Below are positions 28,876 through 40,932 of a stretch of DNA of 47,576 nt, piece by piece. The number at the start of each line of letters is the position of its first letter. The first letter of the stretch is position 1. A program made the position numbers and the translations under genes. The notes beneath the pieces were generated by a model, which saw only the letters and a program-made list of their open reading frames with translations, ran no database searches and was not told the origin of the DNA. This stretch comes from Labedella populi (GTDB lineage: Bacteria > Actinomycetota > Actinomycetes > Actinomycetales > Microbacteriaceae), in contig NZ_RZNC01000010.1 of NCBI RefSeq assembly GCF_004078655.1, positions 1 through 47,576 of the forward strand. Reading direction: 5' to 3'.

Positions 28876-29910
28876 CTACGGCCGCACGAGCACCTTCAGC
28901 GCGGCGCGCGCGCCCATGAGCCGGTAGCCCTCGCCGGTGTCATCGAGCGGCACCTCGGCGTCGAACACGGCGCCGGCGTCCACGTCTCCGGCGAGCACGC
29001 CCGGCAGCAGCTCGGGGATGTAGCGCCGCGCGGGCGCCAGGCCACCGGTGATCGTCACGTTCGCACCGAACTGTTCGCGGCCGATCGGTCCGGTGGCGTA
29101 CTGCGGCACGCCGACGCGGCTCACCGCGCCGCCGGGGCGCACCATCGCCATCGCTTGCGCGAACGCCGGAGCGTGGCCGACGGCCTCGAGCACGACGTGC
29201 ACGCCGTCTCCCCCGGTCATTTCGCGCACGGCCGCCACCGCCTCGTCGCCGCGCGTGGGCACGACATCCGTCGCCCCCCACCGACGGCCGAGTGCGAGCC
29301 GCGACTCGTGATGGCCGAGCAGGATCACCCTCTCGGCCCCGAATCGAGCGGCGGACAGGGCTGCGAACAGTCCGACCGCACCATCGCCGATCACCGCGAC
29401 CGTCGACCCGGGTAGCACGCCTCCGGTACGCGCCGCGTGATATCCCGTGCCGTACACGTCGCTCAGGGTGAGCAGCGCCGGAATCCGCTCGTCGTCCTCG
29501 CTGACATCGACCGGCACGAGCGTGCCGTCGGCCAGCGGCACCCGCACCGCCTCGGCCTGCGCGCCGCCGATGCCGTCGCGGCCCCAGATGCCGCCGATGC
29601 GGCATGAGGTCTGCAGCCCCTCAAGGCAGAAGTCGCACGCGCCGCACGAGAACATGAATGGCGCGATGACCACCTGCCCCGACCGCACGGTCGCGACGTC
29701 CGCGCCGACCGACTCGACGACACCGACGAACTCGTGCCCCATCGGCTGGCCGCCGGGCGGCGGTGTCGCCCCGTGGTACGGATGAAGGTCGCTGCCGCAG
29801 ACGCACGCGCGCAACACGCGCACGAGGGCGTCGGTGGGTTCGACGAGCCCCGGGTCGGGAGCGTCGATGACCGCGACGTCGCCGGGGCCGAAGAGATAGG
29901 TGGCTCGCAT
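28876..29910 (-). CDS. Zinc-dependent alcohol dehydrogenase (MDR family)
   Basis: 344 residues, ATG at 29910 with GAGGACGGAC upstream. Catalytic-zinc ligands: Cys in CVCGSDLH and the GHE motif. Structural-zinc cysteines: CGACDFC, then SC. The cofactor motif is AVIGDGAVGLFAA. It oxidises an alcohol or handles an aldehyde with NAD(P). It is the last gene of the nine-gene island operon, 44 bases after the flavin oxidase. If the oxidase releases formaldehyde, this enzyme could take part in its disposal (inference). Confidence 0.9.
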   Translation of the reverse strand: MRATYLFGPGDVAVIDAPDPGLVEPTDALVRVLRACVCGSDLHPYHGATPPPGGQPMGHEFVGVVESVGADVATVRSGQVVIAPFMFSCGACDFCLEGLQTSCRIGGIWGRDGIGGAQAEAVRVPLADGTLVPVDVSEDDERIPALLTLSDVYGTGYHAARTGGVLPGSTVAVIGDGAVGLFAALSAARFGAERVILLGHHESRLALGRRWGATDVVPTRGDEAVAAVREMTGGDGVHVVLEAVGHAPAFAQAMAMVRPGGAVSRVGVPQYATGPIGREQFGANVTITGGLAPARRYIPELLPGVLAGDVDAGAVFDAEVPLDDTGEGYRLMGARAALKVLVRP

Positions 29911-29954
29911 GAATGTCCGTCCTCGATGCAGCTCGGATGAAGCTCAGAAGCAGC

Positions 29955-31118
29955 TCAACGGGCACCCGCGCCAGTCAGCACTGGATGCGCCGCCGCCCGG
30001 AACCCCGGGTTGTACAGCGCGTGGCCCCCGTCGAGGGCGAGCGCAGCCGCCATCTCGCCAATGATGGGCGCGAACTTGAACCCGTGACCCGAGAACGCGG
30101 TCGCGGTCACGATGCGCCCATCGTGGGTCACGTCGATGATCGGCACCTTGGTCTCTGTGTACAGGTCGGGGTGCACGCTGTAGCGCACCGGCTCCGGATG
30201 CAGATCCGGCAGGAACCATGCTGCGTTGCGACCGATGGTGCTGAGCAGCGCCGGGTCGGGGCGCCATTCGAGCTGATCGGCGCCGGCGGCGGCCGGCAGT
30301 ATCCGTCCGGGCGACACCTTGACGGTGTAACCGTCTACGCTCGGCGCACCGAAGAAGTGCACGTCGCCGCGGTCGCGTATAAACGTGGGGAAGGATGCCG
30401 CAGCGAATGCGTCGAGCGACGCGCGCGGCGCGAACCAGGTCAGCAGCACCGAGCGCACCTCGGTGCGTGCGGCGATCTCGGGGTCGAGGCGCGATGCCCA
30501 TGCCCCCGCGGTGACGATCGCCCGCCGCGCGGTGAAGCTGCGAGCGCTGGTCTCGACCCGCACCCGATCGGTGCTAACCGGCGAGACGTCGACGACCTCT
30601 TCGCCGGATGCGACCTGCGCACCCGTAGCCACCGCGGCTCCGACCGCTTCGAGCACGGCCCGCTCGGGGCGCAGCGCTCCCCCGAGGTGGTCGAGCACCG
30701 CGATGTCGTCGTCGTCGAGGGCGTGCTGCGGGTACCGCTCGCGTGCCTCGGCCGTGGTGAGCACGTCGTGCGGCAGCCCGTGCGCGGTGACGCTCGAAAG
30801 CACGTTGCGCATCGCGGCGGTGTCGGGCCGGCCGATGCTGAGCGTGCCCACCGGCAGCAGCACGGGCGTCCCTGCGCGCTCCTCGAGCTCGAACCACAGC
30901 TCGCGCGCCCGCAGCAGCATCGGCACGTACGAGGCGCCCTCGTGGTACGCGGTGCGAAACAGCCGGGACTCGCCGGCGAATGCCCCGTAGGGATGGCCGA
31001 TGCCGTACTGTTCGACGCCGATCACCGAGAGCCCGGGGCGCTGGCTCAGCCGCCACAGCGCCATCGAACCCATCGTGCCGAGGCCGATAACGGCCACGTC
31101 GTAGTCAGGGATGTTCAT
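29955..31118 (-). CDS. Monomeric sarcosine oxidase/N-methyltryptophan oxidase-like flavoprotein
   Basis: 387 residues. The start is the ATG at 31118, 10 bases after the OCD-family stop. The dinucleotide fold is VIGLGTMGSMALW, the substrate-side motif is GESRLFRTAYHE, and the C-terminal FAD motif is SGHGFKFAP. The segment that normally carries the cysteine covalently linked to FAD (C-x-Y-T) reads PDLYT, with Asp318 in its place, so FAD is probably bound non-covalently. The family oxidises N-methyl or cyclic secondary amino acids with O2, giving H2O2 and often formaldehyde. The substrate is unknown. Confidence 0.88.
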   Translation of the reverse strand: MNIPDYDVAVIGLGTMGSMALWRLSQRPGLSVIGVEQYGIGHPYGAFAGESRLFRTAYHEGASYVPMLLRARELWFELEERAGTPVLLPVGTLSIGRPDTAAMRNVLSSVTAHGLPHDVLTTAEARERYPQHALDDDDIAVLDHLGGALRPERAVLEAVGAAVATGAQVASGEEVVDVSPVSTDRVRVETSARSFTARRAIVTAGAWASRLDPEIAARTEVRSVLLTWFAPRASLDAFAAASFPTFIRDRGDVHFFGAPSVDGYTVKVSPGRILPAAAGADQLEWRPDPALLSTIGRNAAWFLPDLHPEPVRYSVHPDLYTETKVPIIDVTHDGRIVTATAFSGHGFKFAPIIGEMAAALALDGGHALYNPGFRAAAHPVLTGAGAR

Positions 31119-31128
31119 CTCGGTCCGA

Positions 31129-32259
31129 TCAGGCGAGGAAGGGCTCACGCCAGAAGTTCAGCGGGGTGCCGATTCCCGCGCGCCGGGCGGCGCGGTACAC
31201 GTGCGCACCCCAGGCGACGTCCTCGATGGGCAGCCCGCCGAAGCCGAACACGTGGATGCGCTCCTCGTCGGTGCGGCCCGGGCGCGTGCCGGCGACGATC
31301 TCGCCGATCTCGGCGATGTCGGCCACGTCGAGCCGCTCTTCGGCGACGAGGTCCATGAGTTGCATCCCCATGAACCCGAACGACTCGTGCGTGGGGAAGG
31401 TGTACCCCTTCGCCCATGTTTGGAAGATTCCCCGGCTGTCGAGCACGGCGTGAGCACGCTCGGTGAGAAATTCCGCATCCAGCCGCACGTTCGCCGGCAG
31501 GCTCACGAACGCGCCCGGCTTGAGCCAGCGCTCGTCGAGATACGGGTAGTTCGCGCTTCCGGCGGGGCTGACGGTGGCGACGCTGACGATGTCGGCGTTC
31601 GCGACGGCATCCGAGACGCTGTTGGCCACCGACACGTCGAGCTGCGGATGCCTCGCCCGCACGCTCGCGAGGTAGCGCTCGAGGCTGGCGGCGGCGCGGC
31701 CGACTACCCGCACGCGCTCGAGCCCGGGGCGCACCGCGACGAACGCGTCGAGCGAGGTGCTGTTCATCGCGCCGGGCCCGATGATCGCGACCTCCCGGGC
31801 GTTGGCGGCGGCGAGGTACCGCGCCCCCACGCCGGGAACGGCCGCCGTGCGGTACGCGCTCACCAGGTTCCCCGCCATGACAGCGACGGGCGCGCCCGTG
31901 TCGGGGTCGTTGAGCACGATCGTGTGGATCGACCGCGGCAGTCCGACCTCCTTGTTCGCGACGTTGGATCCGTACCACTTCACTCCGGTGAAGTGCACGT
32001 CGCCGCCGAGGTAGGCGGGCATGGCGGCGAACCGCCGATCGGGGCCGGCCACCGGCATCCGCGGGAACGGCGTCTCGGCGGGAAAGGTGAGGTTGATCCC
32101 CTGCGCGTTGGCCTGAGGCCCCGAGAGCCGGTAGTCGCCGACGGCGAACAGCCGCAGCGTCTCGGCCATCACGTCGATGCAGGCGGCGATGTCGGTCACA
32201 CCGGCGGCCACGGTGTCGGGCTCGCTGAGAAAGAGCAGGTCGATGCGGGTGTCGCTCAC
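31129..32259 (-). CDS. Ornithine cyclodeaminase/mu-crystallin family protein, TynB-like
   Basis: 376 residues from GTG 32259, with AAAGGAG six bases upstream. The NAD-binding motif is AIIGPGAMNSTSLDAF; the substrate region includes GVKWYGSN and AYRTAA. The overall pattern (RIDLLFLSEPD at the start, GGLPIEDVAWG near the end) matches the subgroup that databases call tyramine oxidase subunit B. That name should be taken loosely. The fold catalyses NAD(P)-dependent imine/amino-acid chemistry, which fits next to an amino-acid oxidase: it could act on the imine product. Confidence 0.82.
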   Translation of the reverse strand: MSDTRIDLLFLSEPDTVAAGVTDIAACIDVMAETLRLFAVGDYRLSGPQANAQGINLTFPAETPFPRMPVAGPDRRFAAMPAYLGGDVHFTGVKWYGSNVANKEVGLPRSIHTIVLNDPDTGAPVAVMAGNLVSAYRTAAVPGVGARYLAAANAREVAIIGPGAMNSTSLDAFVAVRPGLERVRVVGRAAASLERYLASVRARHPQLDVSVANSVSDAVANADIVSVATVSPAGSANYPYLDERWLKPGAFVSLPANVRLDAEFLTERAHAVLDSRGIFQTWAKGYTFPTHESFGFMGMQLMDLVAEERLDVADIAEIGEIVAGTRPGRTDEERIHVFGFGGLPIEDVAWGAHVYRAARRAGIGTPLNFWREPFLA

Positions 32260-32317
32260 GAGCGACTCCTTTCCAGGGGTCGAAGGACGGATGCCGCGGC
32301 ACGGCATGGTGCGGCAT

Positions 32318-32341
32318 GCCGGCCGTGACGCGACGGCCGGC
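32318..32341 (-). promoter_or_regulatory. Intercistronic hairpin between binding-protein and OCD-family genes
   Basis: Perfect 9-bp arms GCCGGCCGT / ACGGCCGGC around six bases, just past the binding-protein stop, with no T-run. Such stems often stabilise the binding-protein mRNA and lower expression of downstream genes. Confidence 0.5.
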
Positions 32342-32353
32342 ACACCGAGCGGG

Positions 32354-33214
32354 TCAGAGCAGGTTGGGTTCGCCGGGCTCGGTCGCGTCGACCGGGTAGT
32401 CGTACTTCTCGGCGATCTCGGCGAGTTCGCCCGAGGAACGAATCTCGGCGATGTCGTCGTTGATGGCCTCCACCAGCGCCTCGTTCGACTGGTTGACCGG
32501 GAAGTTCGTCTGCCCGATGTCCACGGTCGCCGGGATGCGCTCGTCGGCCTGGATCGGCATGATGCTGGCGCCGTCGACCGGATGCAGGTTGAGCTGCTCG
32601 ACCGCGGCACCCAGCCCCATGATGACGCCGTCGACGCGGCCCGCCTGGAAGTCGGCCATCGCGGCGTCGCCCGACGGGTAGGTCTTGAGGTTGTCGCCAA
32701 GCAGCTCCGCGAGGTTCTCGGCGTTGGTGAGGCCCTGACCGACGCCGATGGTCATCGCGGCGATCTCGTCGGCGGTGTCGGCGCCGGTGGTCGAGATGAG
32801 CGACAGCGGAGAGGTGACGACGGGGTCGCTGAGCAGCACGACCTCCTCGCGCGCGGCGGTGCGGTACCAGGAGCCGAGCGTGGTGTCGGCGCGGCCGTTC
32901 TGCACCGAGGTGATCATCGCGGCCGACTCGCCGGGCACGACCTCGATCGTGAGGCACTCCATCTCGGCGATGCGGGTCATCACGTCGCCCTCGACCCCGG
33001 TCAGCTCGCCGTCCTCGTAGATCGAGAACGGCGCGTAGGGGTACTGCGCGACGGTGAGCACGCCCTCGGTGATGGTGGTCACGTCGGGGTGCGCGGGTGT
33101 ACAGGACGCGTCGGGCGCGGAGGTAGAGGATGCCTCCTCGGTGCCGGAACATCCGGCGAGCACGGCGGCGGCGGTGACGAGGAGCACGGGGGTGAGAAGG
33201 TATGGGGTTCTCAT
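32354..33214 (-). CDS. Amino-acid ABC transporter substrate-binding lipoprotein (family 3)
   Basis: 286 residues, ATG at 33214 with GGAGAA upstream. The signal peptide ends in the lipobox LAGC (Cys at about residue 22). Family-3 features: YAPFSIYEDGELTGVEGDVM, then TTLGSWYRT and a C-terminal EIAEKYDYP. The fold binds polar amino acids and related compounds. It serves the two permeases and the ATPase encoded upstream. Confidence 0.92.
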   Translation of the reverse strand: MRTPYLLTPVLLVTAAAVLAGCSGTEEASSTSAPDASCTPAHPDVTTITEGVLTVAQYPYAPFSIYEDGELTGVEGDVMTRIAEMECLTIEVVPGESAAMITSVQNGRADTTLGSWYRTAAREEVVLLSDPVVTSPLSLISTTGADTADEIAAMTIGVGQGLTNAENLAELLGDNLKTYPSGDAAMADFQAGRVDGVIMGLGAAVEQLNLHPVDGASIMPIQADERIPATVDIGQTNFPVNQSNEALVEAINDDIAEIRSSGELAEIAEKYDYPVDATEPGEPNLL

Positions 33215-33274
33215 GGGAATTCTCCGAACTGTGAGGAGTGAGGTGAGTGGTGCGGGTGTGGGTGTGGGTGTGGG

Positions 33275-34021
33275 TCAGGATTCGGCGCTGACCGGCACGG
33301 ATCCGGCCGGGCGGCGTAGGACGGTCTTGCGCACCGTCATCACGCCGCCGAGTCGCTTCGCCAGCCGGTCGGCGTAGAGCGAGACGGGAACGGTGATCGC
33401 GAGGTAGATCACGGCCGCCGCCATGAACACGGACATGTAGCGGAAGTAGATCGAGCCTTCAAGGTTGGCGATGTGCATGATCTCCTCGACCGTGATGACA
33501 GTGGCGAGCGAGGTCGCGTGAAACATCGTGATGCCCAGGTTGACCAGTGGCGGGATCGAGACGCGCAGCGCCTGCGGCAGCACGATCAACCGGTACATGT
33601 CGGTGCGGTTCATGCTCAGCGCGTAGGCCGCGTCGAACTGTCCGCGCGGCACGGCACCGAGCCCGGTTCGGATGATCTCGGCCGAGTAGGCCGCCGACGA
33701 CCACACCAGCGCGACGCTGGCCGACAGGAACGCGTCGAAGAGGATGCCGACCGAGGGCAGCCCCCGGTACACGAGCAGCAGCAGCACGAGGATGGGAAGG
33801 CCGCGGCCGACCTCGACCACCACGATCGCGAACCAGCGCGCGAGCGCCGACCGGGTCTCGGTCAAAAGGGCGAGCCCGAAGCCGAGCGGGTAGCCGACGC
33901 CGACGCTGACCAGCGTCAGCAGCAGCGCCGTGCCCAAGCCCGGAAGGAGGGTGGGGATCCACTGATACCAGTCCCAGAGCCAGGACAACGGCGCGGGTGT
34001 GGTCGGAAGGAATGAGCTCAT
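33275..34021 (-). CDS. Polar-amino-acid ABC transporter permease (second)
   Basis: 248 residues. The ATG at 34021 overlaps the previous permease's stop (ATGA). About five helices. The HisMQ-type signature is GLGAVPRGQFDAAYALSMNR, and VVVEVGRGLPILVLLLLVY is the conserved early helix segment. It forms a heterodimer with the upstream permease. The 60 bases after it contain a short GGGTGT tandem repeat (about 33249-33275). Confidence 0.92.
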   Translation of the reverse strand: MSSFLPTTPAPLSWLWDWYQWIPTLLPGLGTALLLTLVSVGVGYPLGFGLALLTETRSALARWFAIVVVEVGRGLPILVLLLLVYRGLPSVGILFDAFLSASVALVWSSAAYSAEIIRTGLGAVPRGQFDAAYALSMNRTDMYRLIVLPQALRVSIPPLVNLGITMFHATSLATVITVEEIMHIANLEGSIYFRYMSVFMAAAVIYLAITVPVSLYADRLAKRLGGVMTVRKTVLRRPAGSVPVSAES

Positions 34022-34662
34022 AGGACCGCATACCTCCGAGTGAGCCGAACGTGGATGACGCGCGAGACCACGCCGAGCGGGATGCTGAGGGCGAGATAGA
34101 TCAGACCCGCGAACAGGAACAGCTCGAGGCCGTGTCCGAGCGACTGTACTTCGAGCCCGGTGACGTAGACGATCTCGGGCACGCCGATGATCGACGCCAG
34201 CGCCGAGTCTTTGAGCAGGCCCACGATGTAGGTGGCGGTTGTCGGGCTGACCGCGCGGAACAGCTGGGGGAAGATGATGTCCTTCGCGAGGCTCCACCGA
34301 CCCAGACTCAGCGCCCAGCCGGCTTCGTACTGGCCCTGCCGGATCGCGGCGAGCCCGCCGCGATAGATCTCGGCCATGGTGGCGATCGCGATGATCCCGA
34401 GGGTGAGGACGGCGCTGGCCAGCGCCGGCAGCACGATGCCGAGCTCGGCGAGGCCGAAGAACGCGATGAACAGCCAGACCAGAGCGGGCACGCCGCGCAC
34501 GACGTGCACGAACACGGTGTAGATGCCGCGCAGGATCGCCGACCGGCTCTGCGCGAGCAGCACGAGCGGTGCGCCGAGCACGATGCCGATGAGCGCCGCG
34601 CTCACGGTGAGCAAGAGTGTCGCGCCGGTCGCGGCGGCGATGAGCAGGAACGCCTCGGCCAT
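34018..34662 (-). CDS. Polar-amino-acid ABC transporter permease (first)
   Basis: 214 residues. The ATG at 34662 overlaps the ATPase stop by one base (TGATG). HisMQ-family features: VFVHVVRGVPALVWLFIAFFG (split across the loop) and GLAAIRQGQYEAGWALSL. Five membrane helices. Partner of the 33275-34021 permease. Confidence 0.92.
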   Translation of the reverse strand: MAEAFLLIAAATGATLLLTVSAALIGIVLGAPLVLLAQSRSAILRGIYTVFVHVVRGVPALVWLFIAFFGLAELGIVLPALASAVLTLGIIAIATMAEIYRGGLAAIRQGQYEAGWALSLGRWSLAKDIIFPQLFRAVSPTTATYIVGLLKDSALASIIGVPEIVYVTGLEVQSLGHGLELFLFAGLIYLALSIPLGVVSRVIHVRLTRRYAVL

Positions 34663-35477
34663 CAGCGACCCAGTACCGCAGAGAGGAACCGGCGGGTGCG
34701 CTCGTGCTCGGGCGCGTCGAAGACCTGCGCGGGCGCACCGCGTTCGATGACCGCGCCCTCCACCATGACGCAGGTCCAGTGCGACACATGCCGGGCGAAC
34801 TCCATCTCGTGGGTGGCCATCACCATGGTGGTGCCGTCGGCGGCCAGTTCACGCATGACGGCGAGGATCTCGGCCCCGACCTCCGGGTCCAGACCCGAGG
34901 TGGGCTCGTCGAACAGCATGAGGTCGGGATCCATCGCGAGCGCCCGCGCGATGCCGATGCGCTGCTGCTGACCCCCCGAGCACTGGCTCGGGTACGCATC
35001 GGCCTTGGCTGCGAGGCCCACCCGTTCGAGTTGAGCGAGGGCGCGCGTGCGCGCTTCGTCCTTGGAGCGGCCGAGCACGCGCATCTGGGCGAGCGCGACG
35101 TTCTGCACGGCACTCAGGTGCGGGAACAGGTTGAACGATTGGAACACCATGCCGGTGTGGCGGCGGATGGCGAGCACGCGTGCCCGCTTGACCGGGGTGC
35201 CGTCGAAGGTCATCGCGGCATCGCCGACGCGCAACGTCCCGCTGTCAGGTGTCTCGAGCACGTTCAGCAGTCGCAACAGCGTGCTCTTGCCGGCGCCGGA
35301 GGGGCCGATGAGCGAGATCACCTCGCCCTTGGCGATCGAGAGCGAGACGTCGTCGATCGCGCGATGCTCGCCGAAGCGCTTGACGAGATGTTCGGCCTGC
35401 ACGAACGAGTGACCGGAGCTGTGCTCCACCTCGATCGCGCGCGTGTCGGTGTGTACCGGATCCATGCGCTTGTCCAT
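34662..35477 (-). CDS. Polar-amino-acid ABC transporter ATPase
   Basis: 271 residues from ATG 35477; an ATG at 35465 is possible, and the GGAG/GGAAGG region at the dipeptidase stop can serve either. Walker A GPSGAGKST, Q-loop VFQSFNLFPH, Walker B LMLFDEPTSGLD. The signature reads CSGGQQQR, with Cys in place of the usual Leu. GlnQ/HisP-type importer ATPase. It starts five bases after the dipeptidase stop. Confidence 0.92.
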   Translation of the reverse strand: MDKRMDPVHTDTRAIEVEHSSGHSFVQAEHLVKRFGEHRAIDDVSLSIAKGEVISLIGPSGAGKSTLLRLLNVLETPDSGTLRVGDAAMTFDGTPVKRARVLAIRRHTGMVFQSFNLFPHLSAVQNVALAQMRVLGRSKDEARTRALAQLERVGLAAKADAYPSQCSGGQQQRIGIARALAMDPDLMLFDEPTSGLDPEVGAEILAVMRELAADGTTMVMATHEMEFARHVSHWTCVMVEGAVIERGAPAQVFDAPEHERTRRFLSAVLGR

Positions 35478-35482
35478 CCTTC

Positions 35483-36466
35483 CTAGCTCCGTGTCGTGCG
35501 GTCGAAGAAGCGCATCCAGTTCTCGCCCATGATCAGCGCGACCTCGTCGTCGCTGAAGCCGTGGTCGCGAAGCGCCTGCTCGATGTGGGGGAAATCCTGC
35601 GGCCCGGTGATCCAGTCGAGCTTGGCTGCGGGGGCGGGATTGTTGCTGCTGCCGGCGCCGTACTGCCGCTCCTTGGCCCAGCGGCCCTGCCGCATCCAGG
35701 TGAGGGCGCGTTCGCCGCCGGTCTGGTCGAAGTCGGTCCCGACTGCGACGTGGTCGATGCCGATGCGGTCGACGGTCCACGCGACCATGTCGGCCCAAGC
35801 GGCCGGTGTCGTGTGTTCGCCGACGATGTTCCGGTAGGTGGCAAGACCGAGGATGCCGTGGTTCGCCTTCAGCGCGTCGAGCACCTCGTCGGGCTTGTTC
35901 CGCGCATGCGGAGCGAGGCTGTACGGGTTCGCGTGGGTGATCGCGACGGGGGCGTCGGAGGCGTCGATGGCGTCGCGGCTGGTGCGGTCTCCCACGTGGG
36001 AGAGGTCGACGACCATCCCGCACCGGTTCATCTCGGCCACGACCGCGCGCCCGAAGCGCGAGAGCCCCGAGTCGGTGGGCTCGTAGCAGGAGCCGCCGAT
36101 GTCGGACTGGATGTTGTAGGTCAGCTGCCCGACCCTCATCCCCATCTCGGCGAACAGCTCGACGAAGCCCAGCCGATTCTCGAGGAACGAGATGTTCTGA
36201 CTGCCGAGCACGATGGCGGTGCGACCGGATGCGGCGATCTCGCGGATCTCGTCGGAGGTGGTGGCCAGGGCGACGAGGTCGCTGTTGTCCTCGGCCATCC
36301 AGCGCCACTTGACGATCTTGTCCATCGTCTCGACCGCGCCCTCGTACCAGGCGAGGGTCGAGATGAAGCCGCCCACGCCGCCCTCACGCAGCTTCAGCAG
36401 GGCCGGGCGCTGGTCGGGCACGTCCCACTCGAACGGGGAGCAGTTCAATCCATCGAAATAGAGCAT
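35483..36466 (-). CDS. Membrane-dipeptidase (M19) family protein with altered metal site
   Basis: 327 residues from ATG 36466 with GAGG upstream. The amidohydrolase barrel is clear from GRTAIVLGSQN, MVVDLSHVG, ITHANPYS and GTDF. Two histidine ligands remain (His157, His178). The classical N-terminal DGHND reads DGLNC, so the His-x-Asp pair is lost, and the bridging Glu is Gln90. No signal peptide is present, so it is cytoplasmic. This atypical subgroup also occurs beside dimethylglycine/betaine catabolism genes in proteobacteria (recollection of family context). Its reaction may not be peptide hydrolysis. Confidence 0.85.
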   Translation of the reverse strand: MLYFDGLNCSPFEWDVPDQRPALLKLREGGVGGFISTLAWYEGAVETMDKIVKWRWMAEDNSDLVALATTSDEIREIAASGRTAIVLGSQNISFLENRLGFVELFAEMGMRVGQLTYNIQSDIGGSCYEPTDSGLSRFGRAVVAEMNRCGMVVDLSHVGDRTSRDAIDASDAPVAITHANPYSLAPHARNKPDEVLDALKANHGILGLATYRNIVGEHTTPAAWADMVAWTVDRIGIDHVAVGTDFDQTGGERALTWMRQGRWAKERQYGAGSSNNPAPAAKLDWITGPQDFPHIEQALRDHGFSDDEVALIMGENWMRFFDRTTRS

Positions 36467-36476
36467 GTGGGGGGCC

Positions 36477-39023
36477 TCACTGGGCGCGGCCGGTGGCCGC
36501 GAAGAAGTCGGACTGGTTGTCGCTGTCGTCGGGGTCTTCCAGCCCCATGAGCTCCTCGATCGCGAACTGGCTCGTGATCTGCTGGCCGGGCTTGTGGAAG
36601 TCCTTGATCGTGGTGCCGGTGTGCTGGCGCGACAAATCGCTGTCGGGGTACATCCCGGCGTGCGCCGGGAAGTACACGCGCCACCACGAGCGCGCCGGCA
36701 GCGGGATGCCGTCGCGGATGAACGCTTCGAGCGCGGCGGCGTACCCGCCGTCACCGGCGCCTTTGTCGCGGCGGATGCGCAGCACCACCGTGCCGTCATC
36801 GTCGACGTCGGCCTCGGCGGCGACGCCGAGGCGGGCGAGCCCGAGAATCAGTCCGGGCAGTGCGCTGTCGTGCTGCAGGTCGGTGAGCGTGACCTCGGCC
36901 GGTTTGTCGGCGGCTAGTGCGCCGAGCAGGCTGAGCAGCACGTGGCCGAGCACGAGCAGGCTCTGCCCGCCGCCGTCGACGGTGGTCGCCGCATCCGTGC
37001 GGTTGGTCGTCGGTGCGCTCCAGTGGGAGGTCGATCCGGCCTCAGTCACCACCCCGGCGAGCAGGTCGCCGAAGGCGTCGACGGCGGCGGGGTCGGCCAG
37101 CAGCGCCGTGACGAAGAAGTCGCGGGCGGCATGCCAAGAGCCTGCCGGCAGGTTGAGCGCCTGCATGGCGCGACCCGCGACCAGGCGGGCCTCGCGGTAC
37201 TTGAGCACGAGATGCTCGCCCGCCGGGAACTCTGGTGCCACGAGCAGGGTCTCGCTCGGCTTGATCTCGATGACCGGCGGCGCCGTTGGGATGTCGGCGA
37301 GCGCGTCGAGGACGGGGGCGGGCGTCGTCTGGCGGCGCACCCACCACCAGGCCGAGGCATCCGCCGTGGCAAGTTCTTCCCGGTAGGGCGCACCCTCGAA
37401 GATGAGGCCGCGGATGACGCGGTTGAGGTAGTCCTCGGTGCGGTCGAGCCCGTGCACAAAGGAGTTCATGAGGCGCACGACCCAGGCCGGCACGAAGTCT
37501 GTGTCGTGCGGGTCGGCGTGTGGCACCGCGTAGGGGGCGTCGGCGAGCGAGAGCACGAGCTCGGTGATCTGCATCAGGTCGGGCCGCTCGCTCAGCAGGA
37601 ACCCCAGAGGTTCGTCGGCGGGGCGCTCGGTCAGCAGTGCGCGCAGCGCCCGGAGCGCGCCGGGGTAGTCGGCAATCACCTCGTGGGCTCCGGGCACCTC
37701 CTCGCGCGGCCCGGAGCGGGGCTCTTCGGCGGCGCGGGACTGGTACCAGACGCGGTCACGGTTCCGCTCGTCGTTCAGCGGGAGCTCGAGCGCCCAGCCG
37801 AAGCGCGTGTCAATCAGCTCGGCGACCCGCGCGACGGGCAGGGCCGGATCCAACGTGAGCGTTTCGTCGAACACGAGCTTCTCGGCGACGAGGCGGTCGC
37901 AGTACTCGGGGATCAGCTCGAGCAGCAGCGAGTTCAGCGACGCTTCGGCGTCGGGGCTCACCCGGCCGCGGATGTAGCGGTGCACGGCGGCCAGCGGGGT
38001 CTCATCGCCGTCGGTGACGATGTCGCCGCGGCGGGCGGCGCGCACGACGGTGCGGATGCGGCGCAGATCCGCCGCGTGTTCGCGGGCGCCTGTAAACACG
38101 CGGTACTGCGTCGTCTCGGTGGCGCGGTATGCGATGGCGCGGTCGATGAGCTCTTCGAGGCGGTCGAAGCGCGCGTCGCCTGGGGCGATGGGCGCGGTGA
38201 GCACGTGCTCCAGCGCCTCGAGGTAGGCGAGGGCGTACGCGTTGATGAGCAGCGGGCGGTTGTAGACGAACATGACCAACCCCAGCGCCGACCCGTTGCC
38301 CACGCCGATGGCCCGCTTGGATTCGATCGACAGGCGCACCGCCCCGGCGGGGTTGTCGAGTCGCGCGAGTTCCTGCACGAGGTCGACGGCGAGTTCGCGC
38401 ATGAGGTAGGCGGCGAGCATCTGGGCGAAGTACGAGGTGGCGAGCGGGTGGCCGGCGGGGATCGCCTTGAAGCTGGTGGTGCCGAAGGTGCCGTTGCCGT
38501 CGAGGCCGGTGTTGCGCATGAGGTAGCCGACCTTACGGATGGCGGCGAGGTCGGGCTGACGGCCGTCGGCGAGGGATCGGCGCACGTGCTCGAAGATGCG
38601 CAACGACTGGTTGGAGCGGAACCAGACGAGGGTGCCGACCGGTGCGCGACCCTCGTAGAGCTTGTCGATCTCGGTCTCGGTGGCGTGCACCTGAGCATCG
38701 TCGGCGATGCCGTCGATGAGCGAGCCGATCATGTCCCAGCTGGTGCCGATGATGCGCGAGGTGCGGTTGCCGCCGGCGGGCTCGCGCAGGAACGCGAGGA
38801 AGGTGACGGCGCCCTGCGGGGTGATGACGGTGTAGCGAGCGCGGCCGTTGCCCGCGCGGTCGACCTCGAGCTGGTCCTGTTCGATGCGCCATCCGTCGCG
38901 CACCATGGTTGCGATGAACGCGCGGGAGGCGCTGAGCCGGGTCGGCTGCAGCGCGCCGAGGCGGCGGGGGTCCATGAAGCGATCGGGGTCTGCGATCTCA
39001 GCGATGGCGGGGAAAGTTCGCAT
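36477..39023 (-). CDS. Unrecognised 848-residue protein, first gene of the island operon
   Basis: Start at ATG 39023 (MRTFPAIAEIAD) with AAAGG upstream; a longer frame to 39116 runs through the operator and is rejected. No signal peptide, no clear membrane helix, no P-loop or Rossmann motif seen. It is a large soluble, probably multi-domain protein with helical Arg/Asp-rich stretches, and includes GYLMRNTGLDGNGTFGTTSF near 185 and AIGVGNGSALGLVMFVYN near 265. The end carries DKGAGDGGYAAALEAFI. It leads an operon with a dipeptidase-fold protein, an importer and amino-acid-processing enzymes, so an enzymatic role on the imported compound is likely. I cannot name the family. Confidence 0.85.
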   Translation of the reverse strand: MRTFPAIAEIADPDRFMDPRRLGALQPTRLSASRAFIATMVRDGWRIEQDQLEVDRAGNGRARYTVITPQGAVTFLAFLREPAGGNRTSRIIGTSWDMIGSLIDGIADDAQVHATETEIDKLYEGRAPVGTLVWFRSNQSLRIFEHVRRSLADGRQPDLAAIRKVGYLMRNTGLDGNGTFGTTSFKAIPAGHPLATSYFAQMLAAYLMRELAVDLVQELARLDNPAGAVRLSIESKRAIGVGNGSALGLVMFVYNRPLLINAYALAYLEALEHVLTAPIAPGDARFDRLEELIDRAIAYRATETTQYRVFTGAREHAADLRRIRTVVRAARRGDIVTDGDETPLAAVHRYIRGRVSPDAEASLNSLLLELIPEYCDRLVAEKLVFDETLTLDPALPVARVAELIDTRFGWALELPLNDERNRDRVWYQSRAAEEPRSGPREEVPGAHEVIADYPGALRALRALLTERPADEPLGFLLSERPDLMQITELVLSLADAPYAVPHADPHDTDFVPAWVVRLMNSFVHGLDRTEDYLNRVIRGLIFEGAPYREELATADASAWWWVRRQTTPAPVLDALADIPTAPPVIEIKPSETLLVAPEFPAGEHLVLKYREARLVAGRAMQALNLPAGSWHAARDFFVTALLADPAAVDAFGDLLAGVVTEAGSTSHWSAPTTNRTDAATTVDGGGQSLLVLGHVLLSLLGALAADKPAEVTLTDLQHDSALPGLILGLARLGVAAEADVDDDGTVVLRIRRDKGAGDGGYAAALEAFIRDGIPLPARSWWRVYFPAHAGMYPDSDLSRQHTGTTIKDFHKPGQQITSQFAIEELMGLEDPDDSDNQSDFFAATGRAQ

Positions 39024-39040: not shown

Positions 39041-39080
39041 CGTCAAACAGTGTTTGACGGGCATATGCTATTGTTTGACA
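39041..39080. promoter_or_regulatory. IclR operator region: GTTTGAC palindrome plus extra half-site
   Basis: CGTCAAAC-AGT-GTTTGACG (39041-39059) is a perfect 8+8 palindrome, and a third GTTTGACA half lies at 39073-39080. A minus-strand -10-like TAGCAT lies between them. The site is 17 bases from the 848-residue gene's ATG and lies between that gene and the divergent IclR gene. Length and spacing fit an IclR-family site. Confidence 0.65.
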
Positions 39081-39194: not shown

Positions 39195-39902
39195 ATGGCC
39201 GGAACGCCGATCCTGCAGACAGCACTGAAAACGATCGAGGTCTTGGAGGTCTTGAGCCGCTTTGGCGCGCAGCCCGCGTCCCTGGGGAGCATTGCCGAGG
39301 CACTGGGCTGGAGCCGTGCGGCGACGCACCAGTATCTGACGAGCCTCAGCCGAACCGGGTGGGTGGAGCAGGATCAGGAGCGCCGGTACCGTCCGGGCAG
39401 CGGCGCGGTGCTGTTCGCCCGGTCGATCGTCGAGCTCGACTTCCTGCCACATCCGATCACCGACGCGATGGACGAGCTCGTCGACGTGCTAAAGGAGCCG
39501 ATCTCGTTCGCGGTGCTGCACGGCGAGGAGGCGGTGATCATCGAGCGGCGCGAGCCCCGGCGCTCGCTGATCCATCGCAACCCGGAGCGCTACCTCTCTC
39601 TCGTGTCCGCATCGGGGCAGGTGTTGCTGGCCTACGACCGGCGGGCGCAGGCGCTACGGACGCCCCAGCACGAGCAACTCATCGCCGAGGTCGAGCGCAC
39701 CGGGCACGGCGAGGTGCGCAACAAGTCGTGGATGGGCGATGACGTCGAAGCGATCGCCGTGCCCGTGATGCGCGGCGACTGGTGCCTCGGGGCGCTCAGC
39801 GTGATCGCACCTGCCGGGCGGATGTCGCTCCCCGACGCCGCGGCCGAGCTCAAGAGTTCCGCGGCCCGCATCGAGCAGGCGCTCACCGACCCCACCCCTT
39901 GA
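39195..39902 (+). CDS. IclR-family transcriptional regulator
   Basis: 235 residues, ATG at 39195 with AGAAGGAGA upstream. The N-terminal winged helix has LGSIAEALGWSRAATHQYLT; the C-terminal effector domain has YLSLVSASGQVLLAY and VPVMRGDWCLGALSVIAPAG. It is divergent from the nine-gene operon and probably its controller, responding to the substrate or an intermediate. The truncated integrase begins in the same frame directly after its stop codon. Confidence 0.92.
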   Translation: MAGTPILQTALKTIEVLEVLSRFGAQPASLGSIAEALGWSRAATHQYLTSLSRTGWVEQDQERRYRPGSGAVLFARSIVELDFLPHPITDAMDELVDVLKEPISFAVLHGEEAVIIERREPRRSLIHRNPERYLSLVSASGQVLLAYDRRAQALRTPQHEQLIAEVERTGHGEVRNKSWMGDDVEAIAVPVMRGDWCLGALSVIAPAGRMSLPDAAAELKSSAARIEQALTDPTP

Positions 39903-40703
39903 CCTCCCGGAGCCTTACGGGGGCTGAAACGTTGCTTTCTCCACTTGGTGCTGATCAACCCCGCCAAGAACCGCGCCAAGCGGAGCCTGAACCGCAACAC
40001 CTTCCGCGGACAGTCGGCCGAGCAGTCCTCCCCGCGGGCGCACGCAATCCCGGACATGAAGACCCTCAACCGGCTCGCCAGGGCGTGCGGCAAGGTGCAC
40101 CAGTCCTACAGCGACTTCGTGATGCTCGCCGCCCTGCTCGCCGCACGGTCCTCGGAGGTGTCCGGGCTCCAGGTCGGGGACGTTGAGTTCGGCAAGAACC
40201 TCGTCGTGATCCGGCGGCAGGTCTTCCCCGGCAAGGGCGGCTTGGTGACCAAGCCGACCAAGAGCCGCAAAGAGCGCCGGGTGCCGATCCTGGAACCTCT
40301 CCGTCCGGTATTGGAACGCCTCACCGCAGGCAAGCAGCCAGACGATTCCCTGCTGGTCGGCCCGAAAGGCGGTTACCTCACCACCGCGACCGTCCGCGAC
40401 GCCACCAACTGGGACGGCATCGTCGCGAAGCTCGGACTGCCCGACCTCACCCGACATGGCCTTCGCCACACCGGGGCCACCTGGATGGCCGACGCCGGCA
40501 TCCCGCTGCACGTCCTCCAAGACATCCTCGGCCACGCCTCGATGGAAACCACCCGCGGCTACCTCCACCCCGACGACCGCCACCTCGCCTCCGCCGCCGA
40601 GCAGGCCAACGCCTTCCTCTCCGCGGCCGGCCAGCGGCCAGGAGCCTGTGATGCGTTCCGAGGTCGAGGGAATGCTGTCGGAAGCGTTCTGGTCCCCTTT
40701 TAG
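39903..40703 (+). pseudogene. Tyrosine recombinase (phage-type integrase), N-terminus missing
   Basis: The catalytic domain is intact: Arg in LLAARSSEVSGLQ, HGLRHTGATWM (H-x-x-R), GHASMETTRGYLHPDD (His and the nucleophile Tyr). The arm-binding and most of the core-binding N-terminal domain are absent. The frame opens right after the IclR stop, and only a TTG at 39945 could start translation, so it is probably inactive. It lies beside the 3' end of tRNA-Pro, the normal place for the integrase of an element inserted in that tRNA. Confidence 0.8.
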
Positions 40704-40855: not shown

Positions 40856-40859
40856 ACGT

Positions 40860-40932
40860 CGGGCTGACAGGATTTGAACCTGCGACCCCCTGACCCCCAG
40901 TCAGGTGCGCTACCAAGCTGCGCCACAGCCCG
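40860..40932 (-). tRNA. tRNA-Pro, anticodon GGG
   Basis: 73 bases folding into a full cloverleaf: acceptor CGGGCTG/CAGCCCG, D arm GCGC/GCGC, anticodon stem CCTGA/TCAGG with loop CTGGGGG (anticodon GGG at 40898-40896), and a TTCAAAT T-loop. CCA is not encoded. This is the restored attachment-site tRNA at the right end of the island. Confidence 0.95.

Follow-up and report, generated by a model that had tools for sequence, protein, structure and literature searches.

The closest described relatives of the genes treated here belong to separate systems. They include the M19 (renal dipeptidase) family, PF01244; the DUF3726 proteins (PF12525) and Ldh_2 dehydrogenases (1wtj, 2g8y); monomeric sarcosine oxidase and N-methyl-L-tryptophan oxidase; and the tyramine oxidase subunit B family, NF004848. 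A conserved pathway of homarine catabolism is the subject of a 2026 paper by Ferrer-Gonzalez et al. (Nat Microbiol 11:1531), with an operon reportedly made up of five genes and a regulator. Relative to these systems, we describe a nine-gene operon of Labedella populi that lies within a 47,576-nucleotide stretch comprising the whole of contig NZ_RZNC01000010.1 (positions 1 to 47,576; hereafter the window). The operon is genuine and is read as a novel version of a known, apparently catabolic type; it is founded on a widespread family of unclassified proteins, represented in the window by an 848-residue leader protein.

The operon consists of nine intact genes on the minus strand, from 28876 to 39023, and extends to 39902 when a divergent IclR-family regulator is included. 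Reading down from 39023, the order is leader, M19 protein, ATPase, two permeases and binding lipoprotein of an ATP-binding cassette (ABC) importer, OCD (ornithine cyclodeaminase)/mu-crystallin protein, DAO-family flavoprotein, and zinc alcohol dehydrogenase (ADH). All nine open reading frames (ORFs) are in frame and free of internal stops, and they are read as coding because their third-position guanine plus cytosine content is 0.87-0.93. The gaps between them, from leader to ADH, are 10, 5, -1, -4, 60, 94, 10, and 44 bases. G003, a second genome from the same genus, carries a near-identical copy: across the nine genes, 12 sites differ, of which 11 are third positions, and a single amino acid is changed. 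The first-pass annotation had proposed nine abutting or overlapping genes with a divergent IclR, and order, frames, gaps, and family assignments agree with it. Its ABC importer, OCD/TynB-like, sarcosine-oxidase-like, and zinc ADH families are likewise borne out by Pfam and NCBIfam matches. The co-occurrence check that it suggested recovers the complete set only in the window genome (3.42 Mb) and in G003, among the core matches whose surroundings were viewed.

The first-pass annotation had also described the leader as an unrecognised 848-residue protein. This holds in that no family match was found, and needs amending in that the protein is not a single unit: it joins a core (residues 1-570) to a DUF3726/Ldh_2-like domain. 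The full leader has no Pfam or NCBIfam match at E 0.1, no match to PDB sequences at E 10, and no PADLOC or PHROGs match at E 0.1; a defence or phage origin was rejected on the last of these. Its sequence relatives align with the first ~570-590 residues. The weak match of L004 (G232) covers 56 residues in the C-terminal part of the leader and not in the core. At E 0.01, Pfam and NCBIfam gave no match to any of 75 aligned cores, that of the window among them, and a PDB profile search with the 75-row alignment gave a best E of 0.067, which is chance level. In the annotated plasmid regions examined, the core gene is labelled "hypothetical protein."

An AlphaFold model of the core, built on these 75 sequences, has a mean predicted local distance difference test score (pLDDT) of 88 and a predicted template modelling score (pTM) of 0.90. 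Compared with the PDB in Foldseek, it yielded 91 matches with E values of up to 10, none of which reached 0.001; the best had E 0.35, and probabilities did not exceed 0.13 among the best 50 of the 91. Viral structure predictions gave 101 matches up to E 10, again none at or below 0.001. Judged from this model against these two libraries, the fold of the core is likely new. The sensitive profile and structure comparison that the first-pass annotation had called for was thus run; it left the core without a match and placed the C-terminal part near DUF3726/Ldh_2. No profile match tying the leader to a characterised pathway emerged from the libraries searched.

By alignment, profile, and predicted fold, the leader is a fusion of two proteins that are encoded separately elsewhere. 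The Bosea locus reads IclR, core, a "hypothetical protein" of 236 residues, membrane dipeptidase, and ABC transporter; the 236-residue product can be aligned to residues 596-805 of the leader in the window, at 29% identity (2e-15). A set of eight IclR-linked third-gene sequences, the window included, matches eight annotated DUF3726 proteins in hhalign with probability 96.8 and E 2.2e-10. A model of the window C-terminal domain (pLDDT 73, pTM 0.64) retrieves Ldh_2-type dehydrogenases as top Foldseek matches, with probability 1.00, a best E of 9.9e-4, and TMq 0.54; delta1-piperideine-2-carboxylate reductase 1wtj stands lower among the matches. The C-terminus resembles DUF3726 by profile and may resemble Ldh_2 dehydrogenases in predicted fold, where the match is partial, and it differs from both in being fused to the core. 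Among Pfam models, neither PF12525 nor Ldh_2 matched the window protein; the proteins of Shinella and Phaeobacter do match PF12525. Direct BLAST of the C-terminal part against the Cryobacterium and Acidimicrobiia third genes gave no link, and the connection runs through Bosea and the profiles.

Outside the window, the core, the DUF3726-like protein, and the M19 protein form a conserved module that is found with many other partners. Among 103 distinct core loci (a set that omits L010-L013, L003, and L005-L008 as repeats of other loci, together with the G003 copy and L004), 94 encode M19 no more than 8 kb away on the same strand. A separate DUF3726-like third gene, with Ldh proteins excluded, is found at 99 of the 103, and in the window it is fused. 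Inflation of this count by Ldh proteins had been suspected; a recount without them again gave 99/103. The core itself spans Actinomycetota, Pseudomonadota, one Bacillota, and one haloarchaeon. A scan of genome contigs confirmed 245 core relatives, of which the best 80 are, judged by title, one Bacillota and otherwise Actinomycetota. In a plasmid scan, 168 of 72,556 records carried the core, among them records of Sinorhizobium, Phaeobacter, Shinella, Vibrio, and the archaeon Natrinema. Per genome it is rare: 5/396 in a phylum sample and 6/394 in a class sample, with the window genome counted in both. Since the three parts recur together with varied partners, the module, rather than the OCD/DAO pair, looks central to the operon.

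The module occurs in two forms, of which form II is the IclR-linked one. The 11 IclR-linked cores are explained by one change on the core tree, with support 100, and none of 500 shuffles was as low. Residues at a few positions switch between the forms. Form I has Q122-E123, A173, and Y175 in 90/90 rows and K179 in 88/90, whereas form II reads L-Y, G, D, and T at 122-123, 173, 175, and 179 in 7/7 rows and in the window; R136, N138, R170, R209, N243, E434, and R436 are common to both. Because invariant residues are shared and few fixed positions are switched, we infer one active site acting on two substrates. The Natrinema locus (L099) was excluded from these counts, and its core residues are intermediate between the forms. 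On that Natrinema versiforme plasmid (L099, 7044-15294), the core adjoins an Ldh_2-like protein, an aldehyde dehydrogenase (ALDH), and a BCCT transporter, with no M19 found nearby.

The neighbours of the two forms also differ. In nine Pseudomonadota plasmid regions, form I is accompanied by LysR, ALDH, M19, core, and DUF3726, in most by Ldh and by BCCT or glycine-betaine ABC transporters, and in some by sarcosine oxidase, purU, folD, or RidA. Across 91 form I loci, the nearby genes include ALDH at 41, Ldh at 43, LysR at 29, BCCT at 9, and IclR at 1, where the regulator counts, like those of RidA, come from single seeds and some annotated genes were missed. The Shinella ALDH scores best on an alpha-ketoglutaric semialdehyde dehydrogenase model, below its cut-off, and annotated neighbours of the core elsewhere include an aminotransferase. 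In form II, the order is IclR and then usually core, third gene, M19, and transporter, read for S. meliloti and Microvirga from predicted ORFs. The transporters of form II vary, as do the amine-processing enzymes found with it.

Several individual loci add to this picture of neighbourhoods. A BCCT-type (betaine) transporter lies near the form I core in the actinobacterial loci L032, L033, L034, L085, and L158 (Geodermatophilus, Nitriliruptoria, G1030), as in several Pseudomonadota. In Acidimicrobiia (L080, L041, L043, L089, and others), a recurrent neighbour, protein cluster c12 (12 loci), follows the form I core at a distance of a few genes; by eye it resembles the start of a Rieske-type oxygenase. 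At the actinobacterial form II locus L156 (4541-10648, G845), genes for RidA and a hydantoinase-like amidohydrolase precede IclR, core, and M19. At L157 (8750-10440, G813), a form II core beside IclR is split across two reading frames, and neither M19 nor a third gene was found nearby.

Taken as a whole, the locus is best explained, with modest confidence, as an importer operon for a small amine or an N-methylated or cyclic amino acid, on which the module acts first and degradation follows. The role that we infer is catabolic. The importer would take up the compound; the core, its fused DUF3726/Ldh_2-like domain, and the M19 protein, possibly as a complex, would perform the opening step on a ring or C-N bond; the flavoprotein with its OCD partner would oxidise the released amine or imino acid; and the zinc ADH would handle the carbonyl product. 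The first-pass annotation had likewise proposed uptake and breakdown of an amino-acid-like compound. This part is supported, in that the operon apparently serves uptake and breakdown and its importer is of the amino acid type, with the emphasis moved from the OCD/DAO pair to the module.

The form I neighbourhoods suggest another possible substrate. Form I may be the homarine operon: the composition reported for the latter would fit, and so would the betaine transporter setting. If so, the window shares the module (core, M19, DUF3726-like) with the homarine pathway and differs from it in IclR, OCD, DAO, ADH, an amino-acid-type importer, and the form II residues. The window could then itself encode a pathway for homarine (N-methylpicolinate) or a close N-methylpyridinium compound, with OCD standing in for Ldh, DAO for Mgd or sarcosine oxidase, and ADH for ALDH, an assignment that we consider unlikely. 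In its favour, the importers most similar to that of the window stand beside form I loci in Cryobacterium (ATPase 60%, binding protein 45% identity) and an Aquiluna metagenome-assembled genome (57% and 47%), both of which have ALDH. Piperideine/pyrroline-2-carboxylate reductases are found in the OCD family as well as in Ldh_2, and sarcosine oxidase occurs in three form I regions beside the betaine transporters. One report states that Mgd participates in homarine catabolism (PMC13390433). However, the fixed residue switches argue for a different substrate, and the oxidase subunits near form I score as ordinary sarcosine oxidase; the notion of an Mgd beside form I was set aside, as the neighbouring subunits score as soxA/soxB, well above cut-off. 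In the scan of 103 loci, none of the form I partners ALDH, Ldh, LysR, and BCCT, used as a proxy for the homarine operon, was found near the window leader, and the window is accordingly not filed under that operon.

The oxidative genes of the operon raise the question of a primary amine. The window OCD exceeds the NF004848 cut-off (472.8 bits against 362), and its relatives in the PDB are 4m54, a putative ornithine cyclodeaminase, and 6t3e, a pyrroline-2-carboxylate reductase. The DAO passes NF008425 (276.4 bits against 257), with sarcosine oxidases nearest in the PDB. In alignment, it retains the sarcosine-oxidase-type Arg and Lys positions, which we take to be functional in sarcosine oxidase, and it has Asp where 4 of 7 aligned relatives (L124, L126, L127, L128) have Cys, presumably the residue that binds flavin covalently in sarcosine oxidase; the HMMER alignment to 1l9c is gapped there. 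The window ADH reaches no NCBIfam cut-off among the 25 families listed, and its assignment goes no further than the zinc medium-chain family. NF004848 is found in 18/199 same-family genomes, and 13 OCD regions were viewed: a DAO of at least 42% identity is directly adjacent in 7, weaker or farther in 3, and absent in 3, and none of the 13 shows the leader core or M19. In L126 (1380-13653; G175, a 1.9-Mb genome of the same family), a TynB-like OCD and a DAO are surrounded by enzymes resembling HpaH, HpaI, and HpaE, together with a phenol 2-monooxygenase, in a homoprotocatechuate-type cluster that is likely a tyramine or dopamine route. As the pair is found without the module and in the G175 cluster, it is a separate, recombined, movable unit for oxidising amines or amino acids.

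The first-pass annotation had assigned imine reduction or cleavage to the OCD protein. Its kinship to imine reductases and TynB agrees with this, and the G175 setting favours amine oxidation equally. The operon could serve the use of a tyramine-like primary amine, with OCD/DAO as the amine oxidase and the module modifying the amine beforehand; the family score and the homologous G175 pair speak for such a role, and the OCD and DAO of the window, both above curated cut-offs, are adjacent as in the 7 regions. We nevertheless think it improbable. The window operon has no hpa-type or aromatic ring-cleavage genes, its DAO lacks the Cys of the four loci above, its importer is of the polar amino acid type, and an adjacent DAO is clear in only 7/13 OCD regions.

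For the M19 protein, the first-pass annotation had noted an atypical member, and the classical zinc-ligand positions are indeed substituted. The family assignment is firm (PF01244, 245.9 bits against a cut-off of 26), and the nearest solved chain is 2i5g, an "amidohydrolase." At the site of the classical HxD motif it reads D-G-L-N-C, where classical dipeptidases presumably read DGHND; we take the HxD motif and the bridging Glu to be metal ligands. Among 85 aligned M19 relatives, the two HxD positions hold Leu in 78 and Ile in 77, the bridging-Glu position is Gln in all 85 and in 2i5g, whose Gln-Asn motif is shared, and two later His, one Arg, and one Asp are retained in 85/85. As the HxD and bridging-Glu positions are replaced, an ordinary dipeptidase is unlikely. 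Salvage of peptides or cell-wall dipeptides, with M19 as a true dipeptidase and the remaining genes degrading its products, draws on the PF01244 score and the amino-acid-type importer and is very improbable given these replacements and the lack of an oligopeptide-type transporter within the nine genes.

Several points weigh against the preferred reading of an importer operon in which the module acts first. The profile behind the 99/103 third-gene count was trained in part on these same loci, and same-strand M19 was not found near 9/103 (among them L137, with M19 on the opposite strand; L157, which is broken; and the archaeal L099). Form II was labelled by its IclR neighbour, so its 11/11 association with IclR is by construction, while the clade is not; the window row sits on a long branch of the core tree. 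OCD and DAO occur with the module only in the window, within the 103-locus scan, and in G003. At L132, which has the OCD/DAO pair without the module, the importer ATPase and binding protein are 56% and 34% identical to those of the window, so the importer could belong to the pair. Form II neighbours disagree chemically, with a class III aminotransferase and SSADH-like ALDH in S. meliloti and Ensifer, a hydantoinase-like amidohydrolase in G845, and a glycolate-oxidase-like flavin adenine dinucleotide protein in Alloyangia, all below specific cut-offs except the aminotransferase. Finally, no substrate, activity, or phenotype for any module member was found in the literature searched. The single mention for the S. 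meliloti region, in PMC4960864, is of smb20383, annotated as a transport protein; no other S. meliloti or Phaeobacter locus tag was found, the S. meliloti range having been estimated from map position.

Between IclR and the leader lies a perfect palindrome (Table 1), with an extra half-site at 39072-39079. Its 17-bp pattern, GTCAAACN3GTTTGAC, has a single site in the genome, and 0.03 occurrences with at most two mismatches are expected in the window. The palindrome is a likely regulator operator, and the IclR protein would probably bind it ahead of the leader gene. No sigma-70 promoters were found, with 0.7 expected. A phage-integrase-family ORF of 252 residues (39945-40703, plus strand; PF00589, 87.5 bits) is situated between IclR and tRNA-Pro (GGG) at 40858-40932 on the minus strand; given this position, the operon may lie on an integrated island.

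Table 1. Coordinates and supporting evidence for the features of the operon and its regulator in the window.
Feature	Position	Strand	Evidence
Leader gene, 848 aa: unclassified core (aa 1-570) and DUF3726/Ldh_2-like domain (aa ~590-848)	36477..39023	-	Profile, alignment, and model evidence
Leader C-terminal DUF3726/Ldh_2-like domain (aa 588-848)	36480..37262	-	Model and Foldseek
Non-canonical M19 (membrane-dipeptidase family), 327 aa	35483..36466	-	PF01244, 245.9 bits; nearest solved chain 2i5g
ABC importer ATPase, polar amino acid type	34662..35477	-	ABC_tran; Pfam/NCBIfam
ABC permease 1	34018..34662	-	PF00528 (BPD_transp_1), TIGR01726
ABC permease 2	33275..34021	-	PF00528 (BPD_transp_1), TIGR01726
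Substrate-binding lipoprotein	32354..33214	-	SBP_bac_3
OCD/mu-crystallin family protein	31129..32259	-	OCD_Mu_crystall; NF004848 "tyramine oxidase subunit B"
DAO-family flavoprotein, sarcosine/N-methyl-Trp oxidase type	29955..31118	-	DAO; NF008425 "N-methyl-L-tryptophan oxidase"
Zinc medium-chain alcohol dehydrogenase	28876..29910	-	PF08240 (ADH_N), PF00107 (ADH_zinc_N)
Divergent IclR-family regulator	39195..39902	+	PF09339, PF01614
19-bp perfect palindrome CGTCAAACA-G-TGTTTGACG, candidate regulator operator	39041..39059	.	Between IclR and leader

Beyond this operon, we tentatively suggest, at less than even confidence, that the core represents a novel enzyme family whose fold is absent from the PDB. 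Together with its DUF3726/Ldh_2-like partner and the metal-site-altered M19 protein, it could form a three-part enzyme for the opening of N-heterocyclic or N-methylated compounds, ranging across Bacteria and into a haloarchaeon. Forms I and II would act on different substrates, and the fused version is confined to the window and G003 among those seen. The family is widespread and has no Pfam or NCBIfam match in the 75 cores compared and no PDB fold match, and its steady partners and its split into two forms make its function directly testable. Such work could reveal a reaction not described before, acting on a nitrogen compound of the environment, and allow the genes to be named. Should form I prove to be the homarine operon, the window would carry its chemistry over to another substrate.

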